A DNA stretch of 39,129 nt from Endomicrobium sp. (lineage in GTDB: Bacteria > Elusimicrobiota > Endomicrobiia > Endomicrobiales > Endomicrobiaceae), in NCBI GenBank assembly GCA_031289585.1, contig JAITPF010000035.1, positions 1 to 39,129 of the forward strand, in the 5' to 3' direction. The notes beneath the pieces are model-generated. The model was not told where the DNA came from. It saw only the letters and a list, made by a program, of their open reading frames with translations, and did no database searches. How positions within the stretch are numbered: the stretch's first letter is position 1; each line of letters opens with the position of its first letter. Positions 16,314-22,428 of this stretch are shown piece by piece. The translations under genes were made by a program, and so were the position numbers.

Positions 16314-18533
16314 GTGCCTAAATATCTAGTTATAGTAGAGTCCCCTGCAAAAGAAAAGACAATATCAAAAATTTTAGGTAAAGATTTTACTGTAAAGAGT
16401 TCTTATGGACACATCAGAGATTTGCCTAAAAGCAAAATTGGTATTGATATTGAAGATAATTTTGCACCGACATACACAAATATACCAAAAGCTAAAAAAC
16501 TTATATCAGATTTAAAAAAAGCAGCTGAAAGCTCCGACAAAATTTATCTTGCTACTGATTTTGATCGTGAGGGAGAAGCCATTGCATGGCATTTAAAAGA
16601 AGCATTACAACTTACGGATTCTAAAATTTCAAGAATAACATTTCACGAAATCACATCCGAAGCAATTCTTGACGCTGTAAAACGTCCAAGAGGACTGGAT
16701 ATGGGGCTTGTAAACAGTCAACAAACACGCAGAATCTTAGATAGACTTGTAGGCTATAAACTTTCTCCCCTTTTATGGAAAAAAATAAAAGTTGGACTTT
16801 CTGCAGGAAGAGTACAGTCTGTAGCTGTAATGATTATATGCAGCAGAGAAGAAGAAATTAAAAATTTTGTTCCAGTAGAGTACTGGAGCATTGAAGCAGA
16901 ACTGTCAAAACTTGAAAAAAATGCAATTCCTTTTAAGGCACAGATTTTTTCAAAAAACAACATCAAGTTTGATAGACTTGCAATTCAAAATAAAGAGCAA
17001 GCTGATAACATATTAAAAGAACTCGAAGGCACAAAATATATCGTAAAGTCAATTGACACAAAACAACGTAAACGTTCTCCATATCCGCCCTACACTACTT
17101 CAACAATGCAGCAAGATGCTTCAAGGCGGCTTGGTTTTTCTGCCTCAAAAACAATGTCTGTCGCACAAAAATTATATGAAGGCATAAATATAGGAAGCAG
17201 TGTCAGTACCGGTCTTATAACTTATATGAGAACCGATTCTTTAAATATAGCAAAAAGTGTTCAAAATGAGACGTTAAAATTTATAGAATCATCTTATGGG
17301 AACAATTTTCTTCCTAAAACGCCAAGAATTTACAAAGCAAAAACCAAAGGAGCGCAAGAAGCCCACGAAGCTATAAGACCAACTTCACCAAACAAAATAC
17401 CATCTAAAATAAAACAATATTTATCTTCTGATGAATTGAAACTTTACGATTTAATATGGAAAAGATTTTTGGCAAGTCAAATGTCAGACGCAGTTTACAA
17501 TACAGTTACAGCAGAAATTTCAGCAAAAGATTATTTATTTAAAGCGACAGGAAGCACATTGATTTTTGAAGGATTTTTAAAAGTTTATAACATAGATGAT
17601 AATGAAAAAGAAATAAAACTTCCTCTTTTAAAAAACGGCGAAATATTAAATCTTTTACAAATTATTCCTCAACAACATTTTACAGAACCACCACCGTGCT
17701 ATAATGAAGCAAGTTTAATCAAAGCTCTTGAAGAACACGGTATAGGAAGACCATCAACTTATGCTCCTACAATTAAAACTATTTTAGATAGATTATATGT
17801 ACGTCTTGACGGTAAAAAATTTGTTCCTACAAATCTTGGGATTGTCGTCAACAATGTTTTAAAAAATCATTTTGGCAATATAATTAATGTCAAATTTACT
17901 GCAGGTGTTGAAGAAAAACTTGACGACATTGCAGAAGATAAAGTTGTGTGGCAAAATGTCTTGAAAGATTTTTATAATCCATTTGAAAAAGATTTAGAGG
18001 AAGCAGAAAAAAATCTGCAAAGACAAAAAATTCAAGCACAACAATCTTCGGAGATTTGTCCCAACTGTGGAAAATATATGGTTATAAGAGATTCCAAAGC
18101 AGGACAGTTTTTAGGCTGCTCAGGATATCCTGAGTGTAAAACAACATTGTCTTTAGATAAATACGGAAAAGTTGTTGCAGGTTCACAAGAAACAGATATG
18201 AAATGCGATAAATGTGGAAGTCCATTGATAAAAAAAATAGGATTCCGTGGTAAACAATACCTTTCATGTAAAAACTACCCGGAATGTAAGACTATATATA
18301 ATATTGATAAAGATGGGAATAAAGTAATAAAACCAGAACCAGAACACACTAACATAAAATGTGAAAAGTGTGGTGCTGAAATGCTTAAAAGAGTAGGCAA
18401 AAGAGGCCCATTTCTTACCTGTTCGGCATTCCCTAAATGTAGGAATTTACAATGGATCAAAACATCCAAGCCCAAGAAAAAGAAAATAAACGTTCCGATG
18501 AAAATATCGGAAAAGAAAACAATAAACAAATAG
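16314..18533 (+). CDS. topA: DNA topoisomerase I (type IA)
   Basis: Relaxes negative supercoils by cutting one strand through a 5'-phosphotyrosine. The 739 residues include the Toprim domain (LVIVESPAKEKTISKIL at 4-20; YLATDFDREGEAIAWHL), the active-site segment TGLITYMRTDS with Tyr304, and three C-terminal four-cysteine zinc ribbons beginning near residues 582, 630 and 677 (each CxxCG...C...PxC). The start is GTG at 16314 with GAGGAG at 16301-16306. The last 82 bases overlap the Xer gene in another frame. The dprA-topA-xer order is common in bacteria. Confidence 0.97.
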   Translation: MPKYLVIVESPAKEKTISKILGKDFTVKSSYGHIRDLPKSKIGIDIEDNFAPTYTNIPKAKKLISDLKKAAESSDKIYLATDFDREGEAIAWHLKEALQLTDSKISRITFHEITSEAILDAVKRPRGLDMGLVNSQQTRRILDRLVGYKLSPLLWKKIKVGLSAGRVQSVAVMIICSREEEIKNFVPVEYWSIEAELSKLEKNAIPFKAQIFSKNNIKFDRLAIQNKEQADNILKELEGTKYIVKSIDTKQRKRSPYPPYTTSTMQQDASRRLGFSASKTMSVAQKLYEGINIGSSVSTGLITYMRTDSLNIAKSVQNETLKFIESSYGNNFLPKTPRIYKAKTKGAQEAHEAIRPTSPNKIPSKIKQYLSSDELKLYDLIWKRFLASQMSDAVYNTVTAEISAKDYLFKATGSTLIFEGFLKVYNIDDNEKEIKLPLLKNGEILNLLQIIPQQHFTEPPPCYNEASLIKALEEHGIGRPSTYAPTIKTILDRLYVRLDGKKFVPTNLGIVVNNVLKNHFGNIINVKFTAGVEEKLDDIAEDKVVWQNVLKDFYNPFEKDLEEAEKNLQRQKIQAQQSSEICPNCGKYMVIRDSKAGQFLGCSGYPECKTTLSLDKYGKVVAGSQETDMKCDKCGSPLIKKIGFRGKQYLSCKNYPECKTIYNIDKDGNKVIKPEPEHTNIKCEKCGAEMLKRVGKRGPFLTCSAFPKCRNLQWIKTSKPKKKKINVPMKISEKKTINK

Positions 18534-19390
18534 ATTCTTTTGTAAAATATCTCAAAGCTGAACGAAATTTTTCTTCACATACTTTAAGAGCTTATAATAG
18601 AGACATTTTTGATTTTGCGCTTTTTTTATATACAAAGCAGTTAAATTTCTCTCAGGCTGGAAAATATGATATAAGAAAATTTCTTGAAGAACTCAACAGT
18701 AAAAATTTAAGCAAAGCAACAATTACAAGAAAATTTGCATCACTTCGTACATTCTTTAAATTTTTAATAATAAATGGTATAATTAGCAAAAATTCGATAG
18801 AAAGTATGTCGGGACCCAAAAAAGATAAAAAAGTTCCGTTATTTTTAACCGAAACTGAAATGCAAGCTCTTTTCAAATTGCCCGGTATAAAACTTCGCGA
18901 CAGCGCAATGCTTGAAGTTCTTTACTCATGCGGTTTAAGAATTGAAGAATTAATGAGTTTGGATTTGAAAAATATAGATTTTATATCTAACACCATTATT
19001 GTAACAGGCAAAGGAAGCAAAGAAAGAATTGTACCGGTAGGAAACCAATGTCTTCGTGCAATAAAAAATTATATTGATGAGCGACGTTCCTTAAAACTTC
19101 CCTGCGACCTAAAATCCCCAGTATTTTTAAGTGATCATGCAAAAAAACTCAATCAAAGAACTGCGAGAAGAATTTTACACAGATGGTTTGTTAAAGCGGG
19201 TTTTACAAAAAAAGTAAGTCCTCATACTTTAAGGCACACATTTGCAACACATATTCTTGACAGAGGTTGCGATTTAAGAAGCGTTCAAGAAATGCTTGGA
19301 CATAAAAATCTTTCTACAACACAGATTTACACACATGTTACAATAGAAAGTTTAAAAAAAGTTTACGAAAAAGCTCATCCGAGAAAATGA
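18452..19390 (+). CDS. Tyrosine recombinase XerC/XerD
   Basis: Site-specific recombinase, probably resolving chromosome dimers at dif. From the ATG at 18452 it has 312 residues: a SAM-like N-terminal domain (about 26-115) and a catalytic domain with R163 (GLRIEEL), K187 (GKGSKER), H258 and R261 (HTLRHTFATHIL), H284 (LGHKNLSTTQ) and nucleophile Y293 (IYTHV). The first ~25 residues are hydrophilic and overlap the end of topA by 82 bases; no later ATG, GTG or TTG fits, so the overlap appears real. XerC and XerD cannot be told apart by eye, but a position after topA suggests XerC. Confidence 0.93.
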   Translation: MDQNIQAQEKENKRSDENIGKENNKQIDSFVKYLKAERNFSSHTLRAYNRDIFDFALFLYTKQLNFSQAGKYDIRKFLEELNSKNLSKATITRKFASLRTFFKFLIINGIISKNSIESMSGPKKDKKVPLFLTETEMQALFKLPGIKLRDSAMLEVLYSCGLRIEELMSLDLKNIDFISNTIIVTGKGSKERIVPVGNQCLRAIKNYIDERRSLKLPCDLKSPVFLSDHAKKLNQRTARRILHRWFVKAGFTKKVSPHTLRHTFATHILDRGCDLRSVQEMLGHKNLSTTQIYTHVTIESLKKVYEKAHPRK

Positions 19391-19423: not shown

Positions 19424-21523
19424 ATGGAAACGAATAAACTTGTGAAGTGGAGCGAAGAAGCGCGGGAATTTTTTGAATCTTCTATAGACAATAGTGTAGA
19501 TTTAACATTTATTGTATGTCATGACTGTAAGAGTCAAACAGAAAAAGGATTTGAAGAATTTGTTAATTCAATTAATAACGAAAGTATCAAAAGAAAGATT
19601 AGAAAACTCATTATTCTTGATGCTTCGTATTTATACAGACATTCCATTCCTGGCTTTGCTCAGTATTCTACCCCTAACATTCTAACTATATGGAGAATTA
19701 ATAATCAAAACCTTATTGATAAATTGACATGTAATGTTGAAATTAATTCTTGGGCAGAACAAATAAAAAGTCATAATTTTAAGCGCTACCATAAACAGAT
19801 ACTGCTAGATTATACTGGAGATGAGAACGGAAATGGCTTAGTGCAAGAATTTAGAGATATAGTAACAATGGAAGCACAAAATGGATCTGCTAAAGGGAAA
19901 GGGACATTTGAAGGTTGTCGCGATTTTATCCTTGAAGAGTGTGCTCATGCTTGTGCATATCTAAAAGATGCTGTTGTTGCATATCCAATGCCTTTATCTA
20001 TGCCCATGTTAAATACGATAAAAAGATATGATATTCAATTGCTTCACTTGTATTATATGATTTCTAATAATGCACGCAATTCTCAGCGTATAACCAACGA
20101 TTACACACAAATAAATCAAAAGTTGCTTTTACTTTTAACGGAAAAGCTTAACATAAACTTTTATGTAACAGATAAATTTGGAAATTTTATATATAAAAAC
20201 AATCTTCTTTCAAATATGGTTCATGGACTTCCTGCTGATATTGTTGATCCTGAGGCATGGAAAACATCAAAACAAGTTATTGAAACAAGGAAACAAATAA
20301 TACTTGAAGAACGATATAAAAATATTTGCTTTTTTTCTGTAAAATCTCCATTAATAATAAACGACAAAGTGGAAGGAATGATTGGATTTGCTGTTGATAT
20401 TACGGATCGTAAAAAAACTGAAGAGTTACAACAGAAACTAAAGTTACAAAAAGAGCTTTTGACTATTTCAAGTCAAGTAGCACATGATATTGCTTCTCCA
20501 TTGTCTGTGTTAAAGATGTTAACAAGTTCTTGTTTTGATAATTCCAATTCAAAAGAGCAAAGCTTGTTAAATAGCGCAATAACAAGTATTGAAAATATTA
20601 TAAATAATTTACTTGAAAAATATAAACAAAACGAAATCGCAGAGTTAAATATAAGCAAAGTGGCAAAACAATATACCTCGATTTCTTTTTGTTTAAACGA
20701 CATTATTGCTAGTAAGAGATTCCAATATAAAGACTTAAATGTAGTATTTAACTATTCTCCAAATCCATCATATAATTTTGTATTTATAAAAGGCGACTAT
20801 ACCCATTTTTATCGAATGATATCTAACTTAATAAACAATGCAGTAGAATCATTAGAAGGAAAAGAAGGGATTATAGATATTAGTTTTAATGTAAAACAAG
20901 GCAAAGTAGAAGTTAAGATAAAAGACAATGGAAAAGGAATGCCAAAAGAAACTGTAGAAAAAATAATGAAAGGCATAGATATTGGCACAACAAAACAGGA
21001 AGGTTCAGGTATCGGCTTAAAACAAATTAGACGCACATTAAAAGCTATGAATGGTCAAATGTTTATTGAAGCTAAAGAAAATGTAGGCACTGAAATTACT
21101 CTTATATTTTCTGAGTCTGAAATCCCGCAATTTGTCGTTGATAAAATCGCGCTGCCTAAAGGTAATGCTATAGTAGTGTTAGATGATGATATATCCTTTC
21201 ATGAAATTTTGAAGAATCGTTTTGAGAATTATCTTGACGATATAAGCGTAAAATATTTTACTCAAGGTTTAGAAACTATTGATTTCATAAATTCAGCAAA
21301 AGAAAAGGATAAAATCTTTTTACTTTCAGACTATCAATTAAGAGATCAAAATATAGACGGAATAGAAGTAATAGAGAAATGCAATATGCAAGATAGGCAT
21401 ATTCTTATAACTAGCATGCATACAACAAAAATAAAGGACTTCGACAAAAAATGTAAATTTCTTAAAATATTAAATAAATCATTTATAAATGATGTTTCTA
21501 TATTGATAGAAAAAGAATTATGA
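19424..21523 (+). CDS. Hybrid histidine kinase with a cyclodipeptide-synthase-like N-terminal domain
   Basis: A 699-residue soluble kinase with no membrane helix. C-terminal parts are clear: a PAS domain (about 244-330, ending GFAVDITDRKK), an H-box with H354 (SQVAHDIASPLSVL), an ATPase domain with N471/N472 (NLINNAVES), DNGKGMP (501-507) and GSGIGL, and a receiver with D587-D588, phosphoacceptor D636, T663/S664 and K685. Residues 20-205 resemble a cyclodipeptide synthase: LIILDASYLYRH, an INSWAEQIKSHNF segment, then CRDFILEECAHA and AYP, matching the Y-x3-E and Y-P positions of that family, with F168 in place of the tyrosine and no clear catalytic serine. That part is inferred by pattern. 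A GAGGGGGG site precedes the ATG. The last four bases overlap the next gene. Confidence 0.8.
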   Translation: METNKLVKWSEEAREFFESSIDNSVDLTFIVCHDCKSQTEKGFEEFVNSINNESIKRKIRKLIILDASYLYRHSIPGFAQYSTPNILTIWRINNQNLIDKLTCNVEINSWAEQIKSHNFKRYHKQILLDYTGDENGNGLVQEFRDIVTMEAQNGSAKGKGTFEGCRDFILEECAHACAYLKDAVVAYPMPLSMPMLNTIKRYDIQLLHLYYMISNNARNSQRITNDYTQINQKLLLLLTEKLNINFYVTDKFGNFIYKNNLLSNMVHGLPADIVDPEAWKTSKQVIETRKQIILEERYKNICFFSVKSPLIINDKVEGMIGFAVDITDRKKTEELQQKLKLQKELLTISSQVAHDIASPLSVLKMLTSSCFDNSNSKEQSLLNSAITSIENIINNLLEKYKQNEIAELNISKVAKQYTSISFCLNDIIASKRFQYKDLNVVFNYSPNPSYNFVFIKGDYTHFYRMISNLINNAVESLEGKEGIIDISFNVKQGKVEVKIKDNGKGMPKETVEKIMKGIDIGTTKQEGSGIGLKQIRRTLKAMNGQMFIEAKENVGTEITLIFSESEIPQFVVDKIALPKGNAIVVLDDDISFHEILKNRFENYLDDISVKYFTQGLETIDFINSAKEKDKIFLLSDYQLRDQNIDGIEVIEKCNMQDRHILITSMHTTKIKDFDKKCKFLKILNKSFINDVSILIEKEL

Positions 21524-22428
21524 AAAAAAAAGACCAGCTCCTGCAACTTTTGATGGAAGAAACTGAGTGTCAACAAGAAGAAGCAGAGCTTGCTCTTTCT
21601 CTTTCAGATAATAATCTTGAAAAAGCTATAACTACAATAGGATTTTTTTTAAAATTTATCACTGTATTTAAAATAAAACTAATATTTCCAAAAGAAAATA
21701 TATATGGCTTAATACAGATAACAATAAATATGAAAACTTATGATATTTTACGTTTTAGCTTAGTATTTTCACACAACCCATCTATATACGAGATATCTGC
21801 AAATACTGATTGGTTTTCTTTTGAAAAAGCAATCTTTTCAGTGCGTTTAGATGCAGGTACAATAGAAAGCTATACTCAAAAAGTTGAAGAAAATTTAAAG
21901 TTATATATTCAACAAGCGGTCAACAAAATTGCTATTGTTTCAAACAATGAAATTACAACAATAATCAAAACTTTTTTCCATCCCGTTATTGTTGAAACAG
22001 AAACTGTGCGTGAAGAATTAAATCTGATACAGTTTAAAAAACTTCCCGACGACAACACAAAACAAAATACAACTTCTTTTACAGACTATAATTTAGGTTT
22101 TATAAAACTTGACGTTGAAATATTTGAAGATTCTGACGGTAAAACTGCAAAAAAAATTAAAGAAGGTGATATAGTATTGTCAGTAATAACCGATGAAAGA
22201 GATATAGCACATTATCTTGCGCATCTAATCGGAGGTAAAAAAAATGACAATATGATTCCTCTTCCTGCAATTGTAAAAAAGATATCTTCCAAAAATGATG
22301 ATTTTGAAATATATCTGCAATATACGCCATCTATAATAGGTTTTGCAAAAGTTAAAAATAACATTAAATTAAAAGTTTTAGAAACCCACAATAAACCATG
22401 GTGGAATAAAATAATACCTTGGAAGTAA
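21520..22428 (+). CDS. UBA-like N-terminal domain protein, function unknown
   Basis: The 302-residue protein starts with a short helical domain (residues 4-42: LLMEETECQQEEAELALSL, then NNLEKAITTIG) that fits the UBA-like/NAC-type three-helix pattern, where an E-A...A-L...N...E-A-I spacing is typical. The rest is unrecognised: beta-rich stretches, a helical part (QKVEENLKLYIQQAVNKI), and a C-terminal segment (KEGDIVLSVITDERDIAHYLAHLIGG) ending in Trp-rich KPWWNKIIPWK. There is no signal peptide or membrane helix. Its ATG lies inside the kinase stop (ATGA), so it is translationally coupled and is the natural candidate partner or output of that kinase. This functional link is inference from the overlap. 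Confidence 0.65.
   Translation: MKKKDQLLQLLMEETECQQEEAELALSLSDNNLEKAITTIGFFLKFITVFKIKLIFPKENIYGLIQITINMKTYDILRFSLVFSHNPSIYEISANTDWFSFEKAIFSVRLDAGTIESYTQKVEENLKLYIQQAVNKIAIVSNNEITTIIKTFFHPVIVETETVREELNLIQFKKLPDDNTKQNTTSFTDYNLGFIKLDVEIFEDSDGKTAKKIKEGDIVLSVITDERDIAHYLAHLIGGKKNDNMIPLPAIVKKISSKNDDFEIYLQYTPSIIGFAKVKNNIKLKVLETHNKPWWNKIIPWK

Follow-up and report, generated by a model that had tools for sequence, protein, structure and literature searches.

A gene in the window (the 39,129-nucleotide stretch of Endomicrobium sp. DNA analyzed here, taken at its full length) encodes a soluble hybrid histidine kinase whose input domain is a homologue of cyclodipeptide synthases (CDPSs) of the XYP branch. 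This input has probably turned from a synthase into a ligand-binding pseudo-enzyme, working through a ligand and a phosphorelay that we infer. Because two catalytic residues of the CDPSs, a serine and a tyrosine, are both replaced in the window protein, we do not class it as a cyclodipeptide synthase; we regard its N-terminal domain instead as an input domain, derived from a CDPS, within a hybrid histidine kinase.

The kinase and its CDPS-fold input domain

The kinase reading frame of 699 codons (Table 1) is preceded by the purine-rich stretch GAGAGGGGGG, the last base of which lies 4 bases 5' of the ATG. The initial annotation had placed PAS, H-box, ATPase and receiver in one soluble protein, an arrangement now borne out by Pfam, relatives, a structural model, receiver motifs and hydropathy. 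Pfam recognized HATPase_c (5.6e-19) and, under its cut-off, HisKA (6.4e-4) in the kinase protein, while neither PAS nor receiver was matched by Pfam in the window copy. In the relative L054 both were found (PAS_4, 1.2e-4; Response_reg, 2.7e-4), and Response_reg was also matched in L073. A full-length AlphaFold model (mean pLDDT 83) has a PAS-like order of strands and helices at residues 244-325 and a receiver-like order at 582-684. The protein carries an H-box together with the HATPase_c boxes (N468, N472, D501, G503, G505), and its receiver has D587/D588, the phospho-acceptor D636, T663/S664 and K685, as in a hybrid histidine kinase. No membrane helix is present, the peak 19-residue hydropathy mean across the protein being 1.08. 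Some relatives (L065, L058, L068, L072 and L073) are longer, at ~800 aa, and have a second C-terminal receiver that the window protein lacks; this second receiver was matched by Response_reg in L065 and L073.

Table 1. Coordinates of the kinase gene, its parts, its neighbors and PQ-loop genes at related loci. Positions are those of the window unless a locus is named.
Feature	Coordinates	Strand	Basis
Hybrid histidine kinase (CDPS-like/PAS/HisKA/HATPase_c/receiver), soluble, 699 aa	19424..21523	+	ORF, Pfam, full-length model, hydropathy
CDPS-like input domain, aa 1-222	19424..20089	+	A1 profile vs PDB, AlphaFold model, Foldseek
Cys32 codon TGT, site of the acylated Ser of CDPSs	19517..19519	+	Ser in 31/32 aligned members
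F168-x3-E172 pair (Y178-x3-E182 of AlbC)	19925..19939	+	Phe 31/32, Glu 30/32
Y187-P188 (Y202 and XYP Pro)	19982..19987	+	Tyr 31/32, Pro 32/32
Linker helices, aa 215-241, joining CDPS-like domain to PAS	20066..20146	+	Full-length model
PAS-like domain, aa 242-326	20147..20401	+	Strand/helix order of model; PAS_4 in relatives
HisKA helices, aa 327-411	20402..20656	+	Pfam
H354 phospho-acceptor in VAHDIASPL	codon 20483-20485	+	H354, D355, P359 invariant in alignment A5
HATPase_c, aa 457-563: N468, N472, DNGKGMP, GTTKQEGSGIGL	20792..21112	+	Pfam
Receiver, aa 582-699	21167..21520	+	Motifs, model, Response_reg in L054 and L073
xerD-type recombinase, left edge of the conserved block receiving the kinase gene	18452..19390	+	Pfam; synteny
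302-aa conserved Endomicrobium protein, start overlapping kinase stop	21520..22428	+	Synteny
PQ-loop genes by CDPS-like kinases or CDPS-kinase loci	L144:1185-1454, L146:1142-1420, L073:4719-4991, L058:3697-3966, L129:3412-3693		
PQ-loop genes by CDPS-like kinases or CDPS-kinase loci	L066, L068, L076, L077, L080, L093, L101		

The relation of the N-terminal domain to CDPSs was examined by sequence and by fold. A single-sequence phmmer search with residues 1-223 against the PDB returned a CDPS (5ocd, 0.0022) as its top match. Profile A1, built from 14 family members from the genus and searched against the PDB, matched 5mlp (2.9e-8), 5ocd (6.5e-7), 9i5m (5.2e-6), 5mlq (5.6e-6) and 9iam (1.3e-5); the significant matches were all XYP CDPSs, and the first non-CDPS appeared at 0.017. 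An AlphaFold model of the domain built with 32 sequences reached a pLDDT of 93.9, and when it was compared with the PDB by Foldseek all matches at E<=0.001 (34/34) were CDPSs, the best belonging to the XYP group (1.4e-10; TM about 0.67-0.70). Tyrosyl-tRNA synthetases ranked below the CDPSs, with weaker scores. Since phmmer, the A1 profile, AlphaFold and Foldseek agree, the fold named in the initial annotation was right, and neither an unrelated fold nor a confident match to another sensor family was found. That a soluble hybrid kinase uses this fold for its input is likewise upheld, by the profile search, the fold search and an architecture that recurs in two phyla.

At the sequence level, PF16715, the Pfam CDPS model proposed as a check of this region, gave zero matches to the window protein and to the 14 family members. 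A profile-profile comparison of the CDPS-like family with NYH-type CDPSs of the genus gave no useful match. The link to CDPSs depends only on the fold and on the XYP enzymes of the PDB. Searching plasmids with the CDPS-like domain gave no match. A viral structure library yielded just 2 matches at E<=0.001, each carrying a CDPS annotation, and we do not argue for a viral origin of the domain.

Distribution of the kinase and its coupling to recognized CDPSs

Relatives with the same architecture, which the initial annotation had suggested looking for, were found in two phyla. We collected 57 related loci from Endomicrobium, Holosporaceae, other gut Alphaproteobacteria and one Prevotellaceae bin, many of them colinear with the window protein over nearly its full length. 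Within the Elusimicrobiota the family occurred in 18/341 genomes, all Endomicrobium, with up to 9 matches per genome (many broken), as if it were multicopy, recombining and decaying in this genus. The alphaproteobacterium G345 falls in an order that also takes in every termite Holosporaceae locus of this analysis; 25/50 genomes sampled from that order had the family, mostly as long open frames. An even draw from the alphaproteobacterial class gave matches only in G345 and in a single genome whose XYP CDPS stands alone. This CDPS (L159:1267-1995), from another alphaproteobacterium, is the nearest outside relative in the class sample, with Tyr178 and a basic strand at its N-terminus both retained. 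Many copies are broken or cut at contig ends (G004, G009, G019, G033, G040 and others), and in L058 the kinase gene stands in two tandem copies with a PQ-loop gene between them.

In a tree, the window sequence groups with two Holosporaceae sequences (96/98). The kinase architecture has been transferred between phyla, the Elusimicrobiota and the Alphaproteobacteria. Members of the Endomicrobium/Endomicrobiellum lineage of the Elusimicrobiota live inside termite-gut flagellates. The 302-aa protein encoded downstream of the kinase occurs in 29/42 genomes of the genus, and in 9/9 other loci showing both genes (L111-L119) it adjoins xerD without a kinase. Because xerD and the 302-aa gene adjoin elsewhere in the genus, we conclude that in the window the kinase gene is an insertion, placed immediately upstream of the 302-aa gene. 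Misbinning as the cause of the cross-phylum pattern was rejected for the window, where the topA-xerD-302-aa flanks are conserved in the genus; for individual MAG contigs, L063 and L075 among them, it may still apply. In L075 (4989-5648), from the Prevotellaceae bin, the CDPS-like domain stands alone (~216 aa) with no kinase, and this contig may be misbinned. A weak match in G080, from another genus of the order, was not upheld by the profile.

The same kind of kinase also accompanies CDPSs that Pfam does recognize. Searching the genus with PF16715 found strong CDPSs in relatives, and in all loci with enough sequence (L036, L037, L038, L039, L040, L041 and L043) the kinase gene lies a few bases after the CDPS or overlaps it. 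In the alphaproteobacterial order PF16715 was matched in 3/50 genomes. There L143 has a CDPS and then a PAS-kinase-receiver protein, while L146 has a PQ-loop gene, a CDPS and a kinase in that order. In L144 a PF16715 CDPS (2.4e-44), PAS and kinase are fused in one 711-aa protein, with a PQ-loop gene upstream and with Cys in place of the cyclizing Tyr, and a further CDPS-kinase fusion, L145, keeps all four of Ser, Tyr178, Glu182 and Tyr202. A Pfam CDPS therefore stands directly before, or is fused to, this kinase type in 11/11 assessable loci, so that the same kinase type is coupled to two CDPS branches, as neighbors and as fusions. Such pairs and fusions in two unrelated bacterial lineages point to an undescribed signaling module. 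PAS_4 scores were 2.8e-35 and 3.5e-15 in kinases with a Pfam-type CDPS and ranged from 1.2e-4 to no match in the CDPS-like kinase family; the weak PAS_4 would fit, if indirectly, a sensing role taken over from PAS by the CDPS-like domain. A PQ-loop (SemiSWEET-like) gene of ~90 codons was found within 900 bases upstream of 10/46 fusion starts tested, in both phyla, and by one decayed CDPS-kinase locus as well; it is absent from the window.

Active-site residues and the candidate ligand

Residue counts refer to 32 aligned family members, the window copy included. The CDPS-like motifs picked out by the initial annotation (YLYRH, W90, F168-x3-E172 and Y187-P188) occur in order in the window protein and are conserved, and given the phmmer, profile and fold results their presence is not due to chance. 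The region reading FIVCHDC, which it had taken for the serine region, is the nucleophile loop, and we can now assign Cys32 to the site of the acylated serine (S37 of AlbC). This residue is Ser in the XYP enzymes and in all members except the window copy. Catalytic Tyr178 is replaced by Phe168, shared by 31/32 members, and catalytic Glu182 is kept as E172. The Tyr-Pro signature (Y202, P203, with X at 40) is present as Y187-P188, with C35 at the X position. R72, W90, N94 and W110 are invariant in the 32 members, with the same letters in XYP enzymes. The pocket is thus retained in Glu172, Tyr187-Pro188 and two tryptophans, along with the serine of the relatives.

The doubt that the initial annotation had cast on catalysis was justified, since in AlbC the Y178F substitution substantially impairs formation of the aminoacyl-enzyme (PMC5935735). 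The family keeps its pocket and the greater part of the acylation site, yet has fixed the change from Tyr to Phe, a replacement that cripples the known enzyme. A kept pocket, a lost Tyr and a tRNA-binding strand that is modeled as a helix are more in keeping with a pseudo-synthase that binds a ligand than with an active enzyme. Retention of Ser32 and Glu172 in nearly all relatives could mean residual chemistry. The window copy itself may be drifting, because Ser32 has become Cys and its last strand is without basic residues.

In the mechanism we propose, the former active site would hold an aminoacyl-, dipeptide- or cyclodipeptide-sized ligand; the binding event would be relayed by way of the helices of residues 215-241 and the PAS domain, reach H354 and pass from there to D636 and on to a partner. 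Transfer would have spread the module among gut-protist endosymbionts, and the small PQ-loop membrane protein often found with it may move the ligand. Because sister kinases are fused to, or lie directly after, apparently competent CDPSs, a cyclodipeptide or aminoacyl compound is the likeliest class of ligand, and we favor one of that size over a whole aminoacyl-tRNA. A PF16715 search of the window's own genome (86% complete) found no CDPS, so that a cyclodipeptide produced by the cell itself is not apparent. A wider picture, which we put forward tentatively, is one of cyclodipeptide circuits in endosymbionts of gut protists, in which a CDPS would make the signal within the cell, the PQ-loop protein would carry it and the kinase would read it; in one large branch the synthase would have become the receptor, its active site now a pocket, and the modules would cross between phyla that share hosts.

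The initial annotation had instead named aminoacyl-tRNA or a related ligand. A domain that binds the acceptor end of charged tRNA together with its amino acid, and so reports tRNA charging as a measure of amino-acid supply to the kinase, is in our view rather unlikely. In a Nocardia CDPS, strands beta2 and beta7 hold the acceptor stem (H11, K12, S19, K44, R224, K226-K229), and A76 is contacted by S34, Y172, Y194, F149, C169 and N72 (PMC13062777); a consensus for the XYP strand has also been reported (PMC7566563). The A76 contacts are partly kept in our family, with Y187 for Y194 and C165 for C169 (Cys in 22/32 members), and Phe168 could keep the stacking that A76 makes on the Nocardia Tyr (PMC13062777). 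The serine, too, is kept in 31/32 members. Against this, a helix (residues 11-19) precedes the Ser strand in the predicted domain model, where XYP enzymes have the basic beta2 that grips the acceptor stem, and the last strand is short. The net charge of the domain is -4 in the window copy and negative in most members, and residue 212, basic in 21/32 members, is Met in the window. The modeled helix and the mostly negative charge argue somewhat against an aminoacyl-tRNA ligand, and on the predicted model we lean toward a small ligand, with binding of a whole tRNA in the known mode appearing less likely.

A slow or altered synthase whose product the kinase reads through PAS, making the protein a bifunctional synthase-sensor, is improbable. 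Sister fusions do contain Pfam CDPSs, one of them (L145) with its four catalytic residues kept, and Ser and Glu persist across the CDPS-like family; yet Phe replaces Tyr178 in nearly every member, a substitution that impairs AlbC (PMC5935735), the window copy has lost the Ser, and PAS is weak in this family. Less probable still, and in our view very unlikely, is a domain that binds nothing, whether as a dimerization element or structural remnant or as part of a gene decaying like many copies in the genus. Many Endomicrobium copies are indeed fragmentary or interrupted by stops, and Cys32 is unique to the window copy, but the window frame is open with all kinase and receiver motifs present, and the pocket residues rank with the best-conserved positions. 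For the CDPS-like domain, dN/dS was 0.04 and 0.06 in two close pairs of relatives (kinase part, 0.055 and 0.11) and 0.23 in a third pair, above the 0.13 of its kinase part. At least in the two closest pairs, this domain is clearly constrained. A pseudo-enzyme that would bind a small ligand and pass the signal on to the kinase is our preferred reading.

Known systems and a second kinase in the same genome

We compared the window domain with the XYP CDPSs Rgry (5MLP), Fdum (5OCD), Nbra (5MLQ/9I5M) and Cglo (6Y4B). They have in common the fold, the pocket residues and the order of motifs (Ser loop, L-x-R-H, W-x3-N, W, [YF]-x3-E, Y-P). Unlike these enzymes, the window domain has Phe for Tyr178 and Cys for Ser, is fused to a kinase, has no PF16715 match, and is modeled with a helix in place of the tRNA-gripping beta2. 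The NYH-type CDPSs (L036-L041, L043, L143-L146) resemble it in that each goes with a PAS histidine kinase like that of the window, in some cases along with a PQ-loop gene, but they are recognized by PF16715, are mostly catalytically intact and belong to a different CDPS branch, with profiles that align poorly. With hybrid kinases of the PAS-HisKA-HATPase_c-receiver type the window protein shares the kinase core, the H-box and the receiver Asp, whereas its input has a synthase fold.

A 2010 survey described CDPSs as standalone proteins without fusions (PMC2922099), and in titles, abstracts and open-access text we found nothing relevant on CDPSs with kinases or two-component systems. On the basis of that open-access literature and the 2010 statement (PMC2922099), a synthase fold as kinase input is to our knowledge new. 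If our reading is true, this would be the first sensor kinase with the fold of a tRNA-dependent synthase as its input that we know of, charged-tRNA chemistry would be linked directly to two-component signaling, and small-genome intracellular symbionts of protists would share a signaling system that crosses phyla. The question is testable, since the fused and operonic CDPSs nearby name the chemistry to look for.

The window's own genome encodes a second kinase (G000:C11:538-1383; L128, L131) with a different input, 'domain X', of ~250 aa. Domain X gave no match against the PDB and Pfam. It has the motifs FWESH, RTGYLSR and Y[IL]xEExxWIL, has relatives at L132-L142 and occurs in 16/42 genomes of the genus. 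A short stretch of domain X aligned with the CDPS-like profile (hhalign 86%, 62 columns), and the first 28 residues of domain X copy the start of the CDPS-like kinase.
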